DNA from: Methanobrevibacter sp.
Lineage (GTDB): Archaea; Methanobacteriota; Methanobacteria; Methanobacteriales; Methanobacteriaceae
Direction of reading: 5' to 3'
Assembly (NCBI GenBank): GCA_016838945.1
Contig: JADLKP010000002.1
Location: 1-50,436, forward strand
DNA: 50,436 nt
In this document: one piece after another, positions 6,666 through 46,771 of the stretch
Layout: each line of letters opens with the position of its first letter
Position numbering within the stretch: position 1 is the stretch's first letter
Position numbers and translations under genes: made by a program
Notes under the pieces: generated by a model
Told to the model about the DNA's origin: nothing
Databases searched by the model: none
What the model saw: only the letters and a program-made list of their open reading frames with translations

Positions 6666-7332
6666 CTAAATGTACATCTGCATATAGATTATAATTGCAG
6701 GCAGAATCAAGACTCCCATCAAATGGGACTTGCTGACCCCCAAATAATGTGGAAGCAAACCCATTGCAGTGGTTGTAATCAAAGCAAGAGTGAGATACAA
6801 TATTGGCCCTTCGTAGATAATCGCAAAGGCATATAAAATCACTATCATTAGAATGATTACCGCAATCGAAAGCTTCCTATAGTCTATTCCCTGCATGAGA
6901 TTTGAAAATCCATCACCTAATTTCAAACAGATCATCAATGATATTGAAACTGCAATTAAAGAAGCAAAAGTGAATATCATCAAATGGGCTAAAGTGAATT
7001 CGGCAATCAGGTAAGACATATATACAGCAATTCCGCTCCTTGGATTACCAATCAAATAAATTGCTATGAGTGAGAAGAGAGTGTCTGAAGTATTCAATCC
7101 ACTGTTAGCCAAGAGAAAATTCTTGGTGTCATCACTATCATCACTTGTTCCGCATGCTCCCTGTGCTATGATGCTTCCTTGGGCAGGACCGAATCCGGGT
7201 AAAAATCCTAAGATAGCTCCTGCAGTTCCCCCTGCGAATATGCTTTTCACCGCATCCATATCAATGTCCAAATCATAGAACCTGTTTTGATGAGGAATTG
7301 AGGAGCTATCATTCAAACTAAATAAAATTGTA
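6666..7332 (-). pseudogene. C-terminal half of TctA/DUF112-family membrane protein, separated from its N-terminal half by the provirus
   Basis: GGTAGAILGFLPGFGPAQGS and multiple TM segments; joins in frame with the 46.2-46.8 kb fragment at the 11-bp core. Confidence 0.88.
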
Positions 7333-8392: not shown

Positions 8393-9505
8393 TCATCCTT
8401 TCTTAATTATTCCAAGTGCAGGCTGTCCTCCTGTAGTATGCTTTGCAAAATAGGACTGAACACTGAATTTTCTATCTTGCAAATGTCCAGGATAACTTCC
8501 ATCCTTTTTAATTTTACCTAAACTATTAAGGGCCCTTACATATTTGGTTTTAATATTGATGATGTCAATATACTCATAATGGCCTATAAAATCATCATCA
8601 ATTTCCTCACCTGCACCGCTATAAGCAATATGCCATATTACAGCAGTGTTAGGGTCTTCCAATAATTTTCCTATTTTTTCAAATCTTTCCTCATCAGTTT
8701 TACCCATGTCTGAAAAATTAACCCATTTGATGGTTAATTTAATCCCTGTAAGCTTGCTGATTTTTGCTATCGCAGTATTGATTCCCTGATGACTTGTTCC
8801 TTTACTTGTGCTGCCGGCAAATTTTGCTATTTCCTTTTCACTGAATTTGGTTATGCCAAATTTCTTTAGTGCCTGGCGTGTAGTATGTGGACCACAAAGA
8901 GATTTTGTGCATTGGCCTAATTTGTTACATCCTAAAGTGAGGTAATGTGGTTGTGAAACAAACCTAATTTTTTTAGATATTGCTGCTTTTTTACTGGTTG
9001 ATGTAGATTTCTTATTGTCTTTTTTTGAAGTTTCCTTACTGGTTTGTTTTACTGCAACATATCCCTTGTTAAAATTGCAATAGTTGGGCAACTTGCCATT
9101 TTTATTTAGGAACACTATAATTTTAGACAAGCAATATAGGAACAGCTCAAATGATACCTTAATCTGAAGGCTAGGCACAGTCACAAACCTTGGCACCCTA
9201 TGATATTTCCTGCAAAAATTTAGGAAATTGTCAATCATGATCATGTAATCCTTCTTGACAACATCAACATTCTTGATAGTGTCAGCATAAGCTTTATCAG
9301 GATGGTAGATTATGACATTCATCAAATCATAACTTGAATGTTTCATCTTATCCTGAATCATTGTTGAAAATAGGTATGCTATGCTATACGGTGAAATGGT
9401 TTCACCAGTGCTAAGTGTGCATGCTCGGGGTATTTTCTTGTTTTTTTCCATGTAGGTTTTGATTTGTTCTGCTTCGAGGATTAATGCTTTTTTATCGTAT
9501 TTCAT
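8393..9505 (-). CDS. Pseudomurein endoisopeptidase (peptidase C71, PeiP/PeiW/PeiR type) with N-terminal pseudomurein-binding repeats
   Basis: KSLCGPHTTRQALKKFG (Cys), GHYEYIDIINI (His), ALNSLG; PMBR-like segments IKTYMEKNKKIPRACTLSTGETISPYSIAYLFS. Confidence 0.85.
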   Translation of the reverse strand: MKYDKKALILEAEQIKTYMEKNKKIPRACTLSTGETISPYSIAYLFSTMIQDKMKHSSYDLMNVIIYHPDKAYADTIKNVDVVKKDYMIMIDNFLNFCRKYHRVPRFVTVPSLQIKVSFELFLYCLSKIIVFLNKNGKLPNYCNFNKGYVAVKQTSKETSKKDNKKSTSTSKKAAISKKIRFVSQPHYLTLGCNKLGQCTKSLCGPHTTRQALKKFGITKFSEKEIAKFAGSTSKGTSHQGINTAIAKISKLTGIKLTIKWVNFSDMGKTDEERFEKIGKLLEDPNTAVIWHIAYSGAGEEIDDDFIGHYEYIDIINIKTKYVRALNSLGKIKKDGSYPGHLQDRKFSVQSYFAKHTTGGQPALGIIKKG

Positions 9506-38484: not shown

Positions 38485-38639
38485 ATGTACTCACCTATCC
38501 TTTTGAACCTGACTTCATAATCATATGGCAGAATATCTAACCCTATGAGAACATCCTCCAGTTCCTCGGATATGGCCTTATGGTCATCACCAGGAACACA
38601 TTTAACATGTATCATAACATTAAAGCAATTGGTTTTCAT
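38481..38639 (-). CDS. Hypothetical 52-aa protein (below track cutoff)
   Basis: MKTNCFNVMIHVKCVPGDDHKAISEELEDVLIGLDILPYDYEVRFKRIGEYI. Confidence 0.5.
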   Translation of the reverse strand: MKTNCFNVMIHVKCVPGDDHKAISEELEDVLIGLDILPYDYEVRFKRIGEYI

Positions 38640-39043
38640 AATTCATTCCACCTTAAACCTCTTCTGTCAATGTAATGAAAAACACTACTGACATTGCTGT
38701 AGCCTAATTCATCTGCAATTGCTTGCATAGTCATTCCCTTATTCTTTTCAGCTGAAAGGAATGTTACTCCTCCTGCCTTGTCGATGCGGCCATTACCCCA
38801 ATTGGGATTATTGATCATGTTGAAATGCAATTTATGATGGTTGCTCTTTGAGAGCAATATCATATTGCTTGGGTCATTATTGGTTTTGTCATTGTCCAAA
38901 TGGTGAATGTGGAATCCTTCTGGTATTGGTCCAAAATGTTCCTCATACACTAACCTATGCAATAATTTGCCCTGGTGGATTCCAGAGCTTACTTGATAGT
39001 ACCCATCCTTTCTTTTGTATGCATTACCGAATTTAGTTTCCAT
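38636..39043 (-). CDS. Free-standing HNH (homing-type) endonuclease
   Basis: LVYEEHFGPIPEGFHIHHLDNDKTNNDPSNMILLSKSNHHKLH; C-terminal HTH-like module MTMQAIADELGYSNVSSVFHYI. Confidence 0.85.
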   Translation of the reverse strand: METKFGNAYKRKDGYYQVSSGIHQGKLLHRLVYEEHFGPIPEGFHIHHLDNDKTNNDPSNMILLSKSNHHKLHFNMINNPNWGNGRIDKAGGVTFLSAEKNKGMTMQAIADELGYSNVSSVFHYIDRRGLRWNEL

Positions 39044-39060: not shown

Positions 39061-40086
39061 TTATCTATTCCCAAATCGTTTAATAAACTTTGCAAATTTA
39101 GCAGCATTAATCTCCCTAATCCCATATACGCTATGATACTTATCATGACAAAATTGACATAATACTATACCATTGCCAACATCATAAGCTAGTTCAGGAT
39201 ACTGTTCATAACCAAATATATGGTGTGCATGCAGCCTCTTATCCAATCCACAGCATTGGCAAACCTTATCTCTCCTTAACACTTGATTTCTCCAATTAGT
39301 GTATTCTGCAGACTTTCTTGAAACCAAATCCTCAACAGACTCAATGTCAAGATCATCATCAAGGTATTCAATATGATTAACCAACAAATATTTATCAAAT
39401 TCCCCTTTACTGTCATTGGTTACCTTTAGGATTCCTGTTAACCTGACATTATCATTAACTAATAATTTGTTCACAATATCATCCCCAAGGATTACAGGAA
39501 GATAGACCCTCACGTCTCTCTCACTCAAATCCTTTTTAAAATTAGTTAAAACACATTTTTGGAAATCCACATAAGAAGATTCATCTCTCAAGAATCTGAA
39601 AGCTCGGCCTCCACATTCATTACAGATAGAAGGTTCTTGAATATGTTCTCCTGGAGTCTGTGCCATTTTATGCAATCTCATACAACTTGCGCACTCAAAA
39701 ACCGCTTCCTTTACCTTTGGATGGGTTTTAGCTACAGATTTGATAACTCCTTCAACTGAAATTAAATTATTTATATGTCTGCTGCTTGTATCAAGCAATG
39801 AAATGTTATTGTCAATATCCTTAAACCTGATGTTCAATTCAACTTCTTCCATTGAAGGATTGATATTTTTAATGGCTCTTTGTGCAGCTGCAATAACCTC
39901 TTCTGGTTTCCATATTAGTAATTCAACCAAATCAGGGTCAAACTTCTCCAGGTCTTCATAATTGACTGTAAGTGATCTTTCATCAGGATATTTTTTTAAA
40001 ATTTCAAATACATCATCCTTGTAAATTATAGAGAAGAATTCTTCAAATTTGGCAAGTGTTGTTTTTGTTTTGAAATCATCATCCAT
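39061..40086 (-). CDS. MCM N-terminal domain (helical A domain, zinc ribbon, OB fold) fused to a C-terminal HNH nuclease; no AAA+ motor
   Basis: NNLISVEGVIKSVAKTHPKVKEAVFECASC...CNECGGRAFRF...DNVRLTGILKV...LLVNHIEYLDDD (MCM N-domain), then VLRRDKVCQCCGLDKRLHAHHIFGYEQYPELAYDVGNGIVLCQFCHDKYHSVYG (HNH). Start moved to ATG at 40086. Confidence 0.8.
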   Translation of the reverse strand: MDDDFKTKTTLAKFEEFFSIIYKDDVFEILKKYPDERSLTVNYEDLEKFDPDLVELLIWKPEEVIAAAQRAIKNINPSMEEVELNIRFKDIDNNISLLDTSSRHINNLISVEGVIKSVAKTHPKVKEAVFECASCMRLHKMAQTPGEHIQEPSICNECGGRAFRFLRDESSYVDFQKCVLTNFKKDLSERDVRVYLPVILGDDIVNKLLVNDNVRLTGILKVTNDSKGEFDKYLLVNHIEYLDDDLDIESVEDLVSRKSAEYTNWRNQVLRRDKVCQCCGLDKRLHAHHIFGYEQYPELAYDVGNGIVLCQFCHDKYHSVYGIREINAAKFAKFIKRFGNR

Positions 40087-40161
40087 TTTAAATCCTCCAT
40101 AATATAATAATAATAAAAAAATATTTTTTAATAATAATATAATATAATAAAATTTTTTTAA

Positions 40162-40236
40162 CGAAGATATATAGTAAGGAATACACACTAGTGTGTATAG
40201 TGTGTATAAATACACACTCCTATTCCTATGTCTTCG
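40162..40236. promoter_or_regulatory. Nested palindrome cluster (candidate origin or operator) upstream of the MCM-HNH gene
   Basis: Perfect 18-bp palindrome ATACACACTAGTGTGTAT (40181-40198) plus AGTGTGTA-taaa-TACACACT (40199-40218), flanked by CGAAGA...TCTTCG; AT-rich tract next to it. Confidence 0.65.
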
Positions 40237-40260: not shown

Positions 40261-40710
40261 CTACCTCAATGAACTTCCATTACTTAATCTACCTTCCTTA
40301 GCAGATTCAAAAGCTTTAACGATAGTGAAATCAGAATCAATACATTTTTTCTTTAGGTCTGCGAATGTCACATCATCATAATTTCCTACAACATTACGAA
40401 TCTGATTCTCTCCAACTTTACCATGTATATCCTGAATTCTAGTTAATGTGGAGAATGCTAGTTCTAAAGATTTATGATGATCAATACTTGCAGCTTTATC
40501 TTTCTCAAGCCTGCAAAGCTTACTATGCAAGAATGTTAAGTGAGATTCAACATCAGCAATTTCTTTTTTCACTTCTCCAATCTCATCACTTGCATTTAAT
40601 TCTTCAGATAAGGCCATGTTTAAAAAAGTAGATAAGGGCATTCCAAGTTTTGCTTCTGCCATTCTTACAAGATCTTCATCTAAGGTTACATTTTTTCTAA
40701 TCTTACTCAT
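40261..40710 (-). CDS. Ribbon-helix-helix-like protein with coiled coil
   Basis: SKIRKNVTLDEDLVRMAEAKLGMPLSTFLNMALSEEL then coiled coil. Confidence 0.6.
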   Translation of the reverse strand: MSKIRKNVTLDEDLVRMAEAKLGMPLSTFLNMALSEELNASDEIGEVKKEIADVESHLTFLHSKLCRLEKDKAASIDHHKSLELAFSTLTRIQDIHGKVGENQIRNVVGNYDDVTFADLKKKCIDSDFTIVKAFESAKEGRLSNGSSLR

Positions 40711-40719
40711 GAGAACCCC

Positions 40720-40953
40720 CTAATCTGTCATTAGTACTTCTTCCAAAATTTTAATCTCGTGTTTGAGATTGTTTTCATTGTTTCTCAGGCTTTCTAACTT
40801 GATTCTCATCATGTCCCTTTCGATAGATTCCCTATCATTAGAGAACATAAAAACGAACCATTCTATCGCTTGTGCTGGATTATAGCCAGTTGCTAAAAGT
40901 TTTTCTTTGGTCTCTTTGTGTAACCTTGCAGAGACTATTTCTGTTTTACCCAT
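40720..40953 (-). CDS. Small DNA-binding-like protein with C-terminal coiled coil
   Basis: TEIVSARLHKETKEKLLATGYNPAQAIEWFVFMF. Confidence 0.5.
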   Translation of the reverse strand: MGKTEIVSARLHKETKEKLLATGYNPAQAIEWFVFMFSNDRESIERDMMRIKLESLRNNENNLKHEIKILEEVLMTD

Positions 40954-41185
40954 CTACAGCACCCCCTAAAGCTGCTTTGATGTGCTTGCAGTGATGTTCA
41001 GTATCCCAAAGCTTTACACATCCATAAGGCCCTGATTGTTTCCTGAACTTGAAGTCAGGACAATCACATTTAACTGTCCCTTCCTCATGATCTACAGTCA
41101 CTAAGTATTCAGTGTGTTTCTCGTCATTGTAGACGAGCCAATCTGAGAATATTTCGCTTTGAAAAATTAGTGCAGAGGCGATTAT
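40946..41185 (-). CDS. SWIM-type zinc finger protein (missing from ORF track; likely non-AUG start)
   Basis: Open frame ...FQSEIFSDWLVYNDEKHTEYLVTVDHEEGTVKCDCPDFKFRKQSGPYGCVKLWDTEHHCKHIKAALGGAVDG; CxC...CxH; RBS-like GGAGGTGAT upstream of an ATA codon. Confidence 0.65.
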   Translation of the reverse strand: MIASALIFQSEIFSDWLVYNDEKHTEYLVTVDHEEGTVKCDCPDFKFRKQSGPYGCVKLWDTEHHCKHIKAALGGAVDG

Positions 41186-41406
41186 AGAATCACCTCCTCA
41201 TAGCATTCTCTTTCCCCATCATAGACAAGGATTAGTTTTTCTGCACCTGATAGGTGCTTGTAATCCTTGAGTATTCTTTCCCTTTCCTTTCGGTTATTGG
41301 TGTCTAGGAGCAAGGAGCCTGCGAGGAGAGTTCCGTCCTCTTTGACTCCTTTGTACTGCTTTCTCATGATAACAACCTCTCTATTTCTTGCTTGATTGCT
41401 GGGCAT
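41182..41406 (-). CDS. Hypothetical early protein
   Basis: 74-aa ORF. Confidence 0.45.
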   Translation of the reverse strand: MPSNQARNREVVIMRKQYKGVKEDGTLLAGSLLLDTNNRKERERILKDYKHLSGAEKLILVYDGERECYEEVIL

Positions 41407-42167
41407 TCTTCATCAGTGACAAACCCGTTCTTGTTAAGACGGATTAACTCTTCATATGCTTTTACTAATGATTTTTTAGGCAGTTCTGCAATGATTGAAG
41501 AGGCTATTTCTGCAGCATTATCGAGCGGATTTAATTTTTCCACCATTTCCTGAAGTTTTGGAGCTTCAACCTTTTGTGGTTTGGCTTCCGCTTCAATCTG
41601 TTCAAGGGTACGGAACTTTTTCACATCATGCAAGTATTGGCCTTTGTCATCAATGTAAGTGTAGTATTTTTCATTAACCATTGAATTGACTTTGATGACT
41701 GCTTTGGATGATTGGCTGTCATCATTAAAAACGAGTCTCATGTCAATCTGTCCTATGAAGATTAGGTTTTTCTTGCTTGAGACCAGATTCCTTAAGATGT
41801 CATTCCATCTTTTGGATCTATCGGAATATGCTGCCATGCCTTTGGCTTTGCTTGTTAGCATTTCCAATAAGCTTGTGACTCCATCAAGGATGATAGTATC
41901 ATATTCGGATTTGGTTATTTCCTTAATGGTTTCCTTGATTGAATTGTATGTAGTTAGGTCAGTTGTCAGATTGATTTCCACTATAGGGACATTGGTATAA
42001 TTGGTATCGTCAATGTCTATGCAGATTGGATTCAATCCATGTTCATTGCAGTATTGCTCTGCAAATGTACTTTTACCTGAACCATCCATACCGTATATGA
42101 GAACCTTTTTGAGGTTTGGTTCCTTTGCTCTGTTTTTTAATCTTAAAGCCATGAATAAAACCTCCAT
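41364..42167 (-). CDS. RecA-fold ATPase (Sak4/AAA_24-like)
   Basis: KVLIYGMDGSGKSTFAEQY Walker A; YDTIILDGVTSLLEML Walker B; NLIFIGQIDMRL. Confidence 0.75.
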   Translation of the reverse strand: MEVLFMALRLKNRAKEPNLKKVLIYGMDGSGKSTFAEQYCNEHGLNPICIDIDDTNYTNVPIVEINLTTDLTTYNSIKETIKEITKSEYDTIILDGVTSLLEMLTSKAKGMAAYSDRSKRWNDILRNLVSSKKNLIFIGQIDMRLVFNDDSQSSKAVIKVNSMVNEKYYTYIDDKGQYLHDVKKFRTLEQIEAEAKPQKVEAPKLQEMVEKLNPLDNAAEIASSIIAELPKKSLVKAYEELIRLNKNGFVTDEECPAIKQEIERLLS

Positions 42168-46018: not shown

Positions 46019-46187
46019 TTTTAATCACTTCATATTTTTTTTATCTTTTTTAAATATTTTTGCCTTTGTTGTATAGAGCATGTGAAAACTAATAAGCTTG
46101 ATTTTGTTTACCTAGTTTTCAATGTTTAGCCTATGAATGTTTGGTTTGTTTTTGTTCTGATTTACAAAGCCTACTATTGTTTACTTG

Positions 46188-46198
46188 CTTATTCCAAA
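46188..46198. repeat. attR core CTTATTCCAAA
   Basis: Identical to 7333-7343. Confidence 0.9.
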
Positions 46199-46771
46199 CA
46201 AACCGCTGAAGGTGCACATAAGAGAGATTCCAGAAGATATAGGGGTTTGAAGCATTATCCAACCTAATATGCCTGATAAAACAAAAAGGAGGAGTGACCA
46301 TAGAAATGCAATATTGCCATTGCTCAACCTATGGATCATATATAAAGATACAAGAGTCAGAATTATCCAGGTATACGGTTTGGATATTCCCTGCAGAAAT
46401 GGCAATGCAACCGCAAAAACAGGAAGCATTAGAATAACTACAAGAATGGCTCCAAAACCTCCAACGGAAACTATTCGAATAGCTTCCTTTGATCTTCCTT
46501 CCAATACCATCCTATGCCCAGGAAGAACAGATGTAGCTGTTCCCTCTTCAGGAACTCCAAGAAGCATTGAAGGAACAAATTCAATCAGGGCATGAGCTAT
46601 TGACATGGAAACAAAAACTATGCAAAAGAATTCTGCAGATATGTAATTCATGAGTAATGCGGAGGATGCAAACATAATGGCACCTGCAGTATTCACATGT
46701 ATTCCTGGAACCATTCCAGTACAGGTTCCAATCCCTATGCCAATAAAACATGCCATGACCAAATCTAACAT
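46188..46771 (-). pseudogene. N-terminal half of TctA/DUF112-family membrane protein interrupted by the provirus
   Basis: GIGIGTCTGMVPGIHVNTAGAIMFA...SMLLGVPEEGTATSVLPGHRM; reads into the virus and stops 2 codons past the core. Confidence 0.88.

Follow-up and report, generated by a model that had tools for sequence, protein, structure and literature searches.

The question raised by this locus is why a methanogen provirus encodes the N-terminal part of an MCM helicase joined to an HNH nuclease, without an AAA+ motor, and what such a protein may do for the virus.

Architecture and setting of the fusion gene

The window (the whole stretch of 50,436 nucleotides that was analysed) holds a tailed provirus with a terminase, a Mu-type portal and a pseudomurein-binding-repeat protein, and its host is Methanobrevibacter-like. 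The two halves of a TctA-family transporter gene (6666–7316 and 46181–46771) flank the provirus, which therefore appears to be inserted into that gene; no exact repeat of at least 14 bases was found between the two provirus ends searched. The integrase-like gene was called by reading the sequence, and Pfam gave no match to it. The pseudomurein-binding-repeat protein (8393–9505) is likely the provirus lysin, in a PeiR-like role. The fusion gene starts with an ATG at 40086 and its stop codon is at 39061–39063, as read in the sequence. Its features are:

40094–40098, minus strand: Shine–Dalgarno sequence GGAGG, 7 nt 5' of the fusion ATG
39061–40086, minus strand: MCM-N/HNH fusion gene (341 aa), for which six homologous fusions were found
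39841–40065, minus strand: MCM A domain (residues 8–82), host-like in its DNA
39352–39840, minus strand: MCM OB fold (residues 83–245) with the Zn ribbon inserted, diverged
39583–39699, minus strand: MCM Zn ribbon (residues 130–168) with C132, C135, C155 and C158
39319–39351, minus strand: linker in place of the MCM N–C linker, low pLDDT
39064–39318, minus strand: HNH nuclease domain (residues 257–341), with profile matches

Based on Pfam, residues 14–85 match MCM_N (2e-9), residues 101–223 match MCM_OB (7e-18) and residues 276–319 match HNH (PF01844; 2e-5). Pfam found no MCM motor (PF00493) in the protein, and the gene stops after the HNH domain. In a sequence search of the PDB, residues 7–251 match 1LTL, the N-domain of the Methanothermobacter MCM (1e-61, 46% identity). 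The AlphaFold2 model, compared by Foldseek, matches the same entry (E=2.9e-30, TM-score on the target 0.93, rmsd 1.6, 235 columns). The first-pass annotation had described an MCM A domain, Zn ribbon and OB fold fused to an HNH nuclease without the AAA+ part, and had proposed a structural comparison with MCM N-domains; Pfam, the PDB and the model all agree with its description, and the N-terminal part has the MCM fold. As it had also stated, no MCM motor is found elsewhere in the window. The only strong MCM motor of the host genome is that of the intact cellular MCM, which lies on another contig (G000:C244, 681 aa).

Concerning the HNH domain, its Zn cysteines are C276, C279, C310 and C313, and the residues H288/H289, N305, H314 and H318 are present. 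These cysteines, the MCM-type Zn cysteines and the H/N residues are invariant in five aligned members, and the HNH motif and zinc knuckle residues are invariant in all seven fusions that were found. The catalytic residues are thus intact in seven viruses and the domain is a predicted nuclease. It is poorly modelled in the window member (pLDDT about 40). In the member from prophage phi-mru of M. ruminantium (mean pLDDT 87, 1LTL match with a TM-score of 0.86) the HNH domain is folded, mostly at 80–94, and a flexible linker separates it from the MCM part. In a profile search no solved structure matches the HNH subfamily of the fusion.

Members, neighbourhoods and relatives

Of 141 Methanobacteriaceae genomes searched, five encode this fusion (G000, G020, G045, G047 and G063), and two more viral contigs carry it (L039 and L179), which gives seven distinct fusion proteins of 330–345 aa, strongly diverged from one another. 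In the scan of viral contigs the single window protein as query gave no matches; alignment queries gave them. The G020 copy is that of phi-mru, and the same copy is found in IMGVR_UViG_646311943. The MCM part alone, without the HNH domain, is present in G031, in the same gene neighbourhood as the fusions. The search for the fusion in other archaeal viruses, which had been suggested at first pass, thus yielded six more members; as the motorless architecture recurs at 330–345 aa in six other distinct proviruses and viral contigs, it is beyond chance, and the window copy is not a unique frame-broken artefact. Other candidates were rejected: a match in MFTV1 is an MCM with its motor, the short MCM-N frames of L028–L031 belong to cellular mcm loci that lie at contig ends or have broken frames and are no viral fusions, and an intein or homing element in mcm does not fit, with a stop codon and no motor half after the HNH domain and the same junction region in seven members.

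The genes and sites around the fusion in the window are:

38636–39043, minus strand: separate HNH_3 endonuclease gene (Pfam), directly downstream of the fusion
40182–40218, no strand assigned: palindrome TACACACTAGTGTGTA and two further half-sites (sequence reading)
40261–40710, minus strand: RHH-like protein (phrog_12892, PHROGs)
40720–40953, minus strand: second small RHH-like gene (sequence reading)
40946–41101, minus strand: SWIM-type zinc finger, homologous to the SWIM gene upstream of the phi-mru fusion
41364–42167, minus strand: Sak4-like ATPase (recombinase/annealing), 61% identical to the L039 copy, in the same operon

The order in L039, L022 and L179 is one or more SSAP or ATPase genes, SWIM, fusion and RHH-like gene, and neighbouring genes overlap by a few bases; the gene preceding SWIM in L179 is assigned by position only. 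The SSAP is of the Sak4 type in L039 and the window, and Erf-like in L022. In phi-mru the order is SWIM, fusion, RHH, and an SSAP-like gene there is suggested by a weak match only. In the window, Sak4 and SWIM are followed by two RHH-like genes, a 174-bp gap with TACACACTAGTGTGTA, and the fusion. Homologues of the RHH-like protein (phrog_12892) are encoded next to the fusions of phi-mru and L020, and in L023 next to the copy that consists of the N-terminal part only. Recombination genes are absent beside the fusion in L019 and L020. The palindromes at 40.16–40.24 kb had been offered as a target of the nuclease; they lie between the RHH-type gene and the fusion and look operator-like, and that role is unsupported. 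The TACACACTAGTGTGTA palindrome and half-sites are likely the RHH operator/promoter region of the fusion gene, and the TACACACT sites are candidate binding sites for the RHH protein. An LlaMI-type restriction enzyme, two C5 methylases and a Vsr-like gene are found directly upstream of the L019 fusion (L019:3816–9156).

Other pieces of the replication machinery are found in related viruses. In L020 (1922–3061) the place of the recombination genes, directly beside the fusion, is taken by a stand-alone MCM motor that lacks the Walker B segment and keeps the lid and winged helix; a second motor of this kind lies directly beside an HNH fusion gene in L024 (10003–11082). Cdc6 AAA+lid proteins without the winged helix are present in phi-mru (L021:5289–6116) and the G031 provirus (L023:12895–13719); no Cdc6-like AAA+lid gene was found in the window. 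A truncated cdc6 is on record for the M. ruminantium prophage (PMC2812497), and the Orc1/Cdc6 of the M. smithii virus MSTV1 is thought to control whether lysis or lysogeny follows (PMC12134362).

The fusion shares features with several known systems. Like the archaeal MCM N-domain (PF14551 and PF17207; 1LTL, 4POF), it has the three subdomains, the Zn cysteines and the fold, and it is derived from the Methanobrevibacter MCM; unlike the archaeal MCM, it lacks the AAA+ motor, has lost the residues of the motor-coupling loop (ACL) and of the MSSB, and carries an HNH domain at its C-terminus. With HNH endonucleases (PF01844; phage phrog_119 and phrog_144) it has in common the HNH motif, two CxxC pairs and the invariant H-N-H, whereas its own HNH domain is joined to an MCM fragment. 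The domain appears to be modular: proteins of L024 (9389–10000), L025 (9314–10759), L026 (8685–9578) and L170 (5359–6297) carry an HNH of the same subfamily (46–56% identity to that of the window) behind other, apparently OB-like N-terminal parts, which differ from those of the fusions and have no MCM A domain or Zn ribbon. With regard to the known junction nuclease families (NinG/Rap, RusA), only one relative, that of L024, gave a match, a weak one to NinG (0.0019). HATV-2 gp93 was rejected as an OB-HNH protein; its N-terminal part reads as helix-turn-helix repeats. Viral and plasmid MCM helicases (phrog_10371; haloviral MCMs, MFTV1) also bring the MCM N-domain into archaeal mobile elements, but theirs carry the AAA+ motor. 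A parallel in layout, an MCM N-domain with a nuclease and no motor, is the MCM-N/HsdR_N protein of Haloglomus (WP_254824912; L035:3974–5467) and Haloplanus (WP_114606886; L037:3980–5275), the only two full-length fusions of this kind found in plasmid searches. These differ in having a PD-(D/E)XK nuclease (HsdR_N), in being plasmid-borne and in showing no conservation specific to the A domain and Zn ribbon. The Haloplanus gene, with a DUF1156/HmaB methylase on one side and an SNF2-type helicase on the other, is part of a defence cluster of the Hma/DUF499 type.

No single family searched in Pfam, PHROGs and PADLOC spans both the MCM part and the HNH domain, and the window protein has no match in PADLOC. 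Although MCM fragments, HNH domains and viral MCMs are each familiar, our search of open-access papers gave no description of the MCM-N/HNH architecture, or of an MCM N-domain with a nuclease or HNH in archaeal viruses; the first-pass annotation likewise knew of no described family.

Conservation and origin of the MCM part

Host-conserved columns were those with a conservation of 90% or more among 28 cellular MCMs of Methanobacteriaceae. Of these columns, the A domain of the seven fusions retains 88%, the Zn ribbon 84%, the OB fold 45% and the ACL 4%. The difference between A plus Zn and OB has p=6e-11 in six fusions and p=9e-12 without the window member, values to be taken as a guide only because columns are treated as independent and members share ancestry; as a control, five intact divergent MCMs keep 40% and 40% (p=0.89). 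Concerning DNA binding, the MSSB residues of PfMCM are R124 and R186 (PMC3970758). The fusions have lost the equivalent of R124 in five of six and that of R186 in six of six (S117 and V in the window member), whereas all 12 cellular MCMs compared have K or R at the MSSB positions. As these positions for binding single-stranded DNA are mostly lost, a role of the N-domain as mainly a DNA-binding module, which the first-pass idea of an origin-binding nuclease would imply, is unsupported. From the column retention and the MSSB losses, we conclude that the fusions lost the DNA grip and the motor coupling and kept the A and Zn surfaces. The position of F179, a hexamer-core aromatic residue (PMC4627082), is F or Y in six of six fusions; several members have a shorter version of the beta-turn on which hexamers depend.

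The three parts of the protein have different histories. In the A-domain tree, every fusion with a known host groups with the lineage of that host: the window member with the host it resides in (100/84), phi-mru within that same genus, and L041, L046 and L019 with the other genus. A single clade of the seven fusions is rejected (AU p=1.4e-6). In the OB plus Zn tree the fusions stand apart from the cellular MCMs, one clade is not rejected (p=0.13), and grouping of the window member with its own host is rejected (p=0.029). The window gene is a mosaic, with a nucleotide identity to the host mcm of 82–97% over codons 1–80 and mostly 30–70% beyond. In most other members the third positions of the A domain are near saturation and the residues are kept, which points to selection rather than recent exchange. 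Passive gene conversion could account for part of the host matching, because the best conserved stretch recombines most easily. In the HNH tree, the window domain sits with OB-HNH proteins that have no MCM part (89/91), and the fusions are intermixed with such proteins, so that several changes are needed; no bootstrap HNH tree gives one origin, and a single origin of the whole fusion is unsupported. This separate history suggests that the MCM part and the HNH domain were joined, or the HNH domain swapped, probably more than once.

Possible functions and their meaning

The account that we favour, with modest confidence, is that an HNH nuclease reaches the replication machinery of the host by way of a host-matched docking module captured from MCM. 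A Methanobrevibacter virus would have captured the N-terminal half of the host MCM, and the HNH nuclease would have replaced the AAA+ motor. The A domain and Zn ribbon may dock on a host replication factor, either the host MCM ring, head-on, or a partner of MCM such as Orc1/Cdc6. In Methanothermobacter MCM the head-to-head contact of the double hexamer is made via the Zn subdomain (PMC4619765), and domain A regulates the helicase activity (PMC2997501). The HNH domain would thereby be delivered to DNA at the sites of host MCM loading or activity, and could cleave it there. A nick or cut at such a site might start recombination-dependent viral replication on the host machinery; this is the likeliest use, because the fusion usually adjoins Sak4/Erf-type genes and the stretches read of these viruses contain no viral MCM. 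Shut-off of host replication is a close alternative, over which the recombination operon favours a viral replication start. Of the roles proposed at first pass, recruitment or poisoning of host MCM fits the kept A domain and Zn ribbon and the host-matched A domain, with the partner itself a supposition, and a viral initiator nickase is possible. The other licensing fragments of neighbouring proviruses, the MCM motor of L020 and the Cdc6 of phi-mru, also count for docking. Several observations count against it: OB-HNH relatives without A or Zn occur in similar viruses (L024–L026, L170), so the HNH can work without the module; the L023 relative keeps the N-terminal part and has no HNH; the L019 copy adjoins a restriction–modification cluster and tail genes; and in Sulfolobus the part of MCM to which Cdc6 binds is the C-terminal winged helix (PMC5333045). 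We put forward only tentatively the broader proposal that the virus wears the A domain of the host MCM to steer the nuclease to origins or forks and repeatedly re-acquires it with each new host; the MCM-N/HNH fusion would then belong to a larger set of host licensing-factor fragments in viral use, together with motor-dead MCM and a Cdc6 that lacks its DNA-binding domain.

Instead of docking, the MCM part could be an OB/Zn handle on DNA, with the HNH domain trimming flaps or junctions together with Sak4/Erf in general recombination, without contact to host MCM. The operon shared with Sak4/Erf-like annealing proteins, the existence in related viruses of OB-HNH proteins that lack A and Zn (one of them encoded next to a DinG-like helicase and a viral MCM) and the mixing of both kinds in the HNH tree agree with this, but the single-stranded-DNA-binding arginines and the basic turn of MCM are mostly lost, and the part that is best kept and matched to the host is the A domain, for which no DNA binding is known; we therefore find it unlikely. 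At least as unlikely, in our judgement, is that the fusion enters the host MCM ring as a poison subunit, forming mixed hexamers without a full motor tier which block or break host forks. The intact MCM N-fold without a motor, the hexamer-core aromatic kept in all six fusions compared and the degenerate MCM motor that co-occurs in L020 would suit such a role; the ring contacts, however, are mainly in the OB fold, the most diverged part, and the hexamer beta-turn is the element shortened in several members. Very improbable is a relic, either of an mcm gene into which a mobile HNH element inserted or of a host fragment in decay: mobile HNH genes abound here, with a second HNH gene directly downstream, and the HNH domains of the window and of other fusions apparently have separate sources, but the seven fusions are open and strongly diverged, with invariant zinc and catalytic residues, mostly one conserved operon slot and no motor half after. 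Thus, of the first-pass alternative of an MCM captured and truncated by an HNH element, the viral capture of an MCM fragment stands, with the A domain nested in Methanobrevibacter MCM, and the truncated relic is unsupported, given a conserved fusion that occupies one operon slot in most members and has intact catalytic residues in seven viruses.

If the docking account is true, a viral nuclease would be addressed by a captured, host-matched piece of a helicase, and its A domain would record host specificity. Two points would become testable: the partner of the archaeal MCM A domain, and how tailed viruses of methanogens without their own MCM take over or stop host replication. As the hosts are rumen and gut Methanobrevibacter, this would have relevance to methane control.
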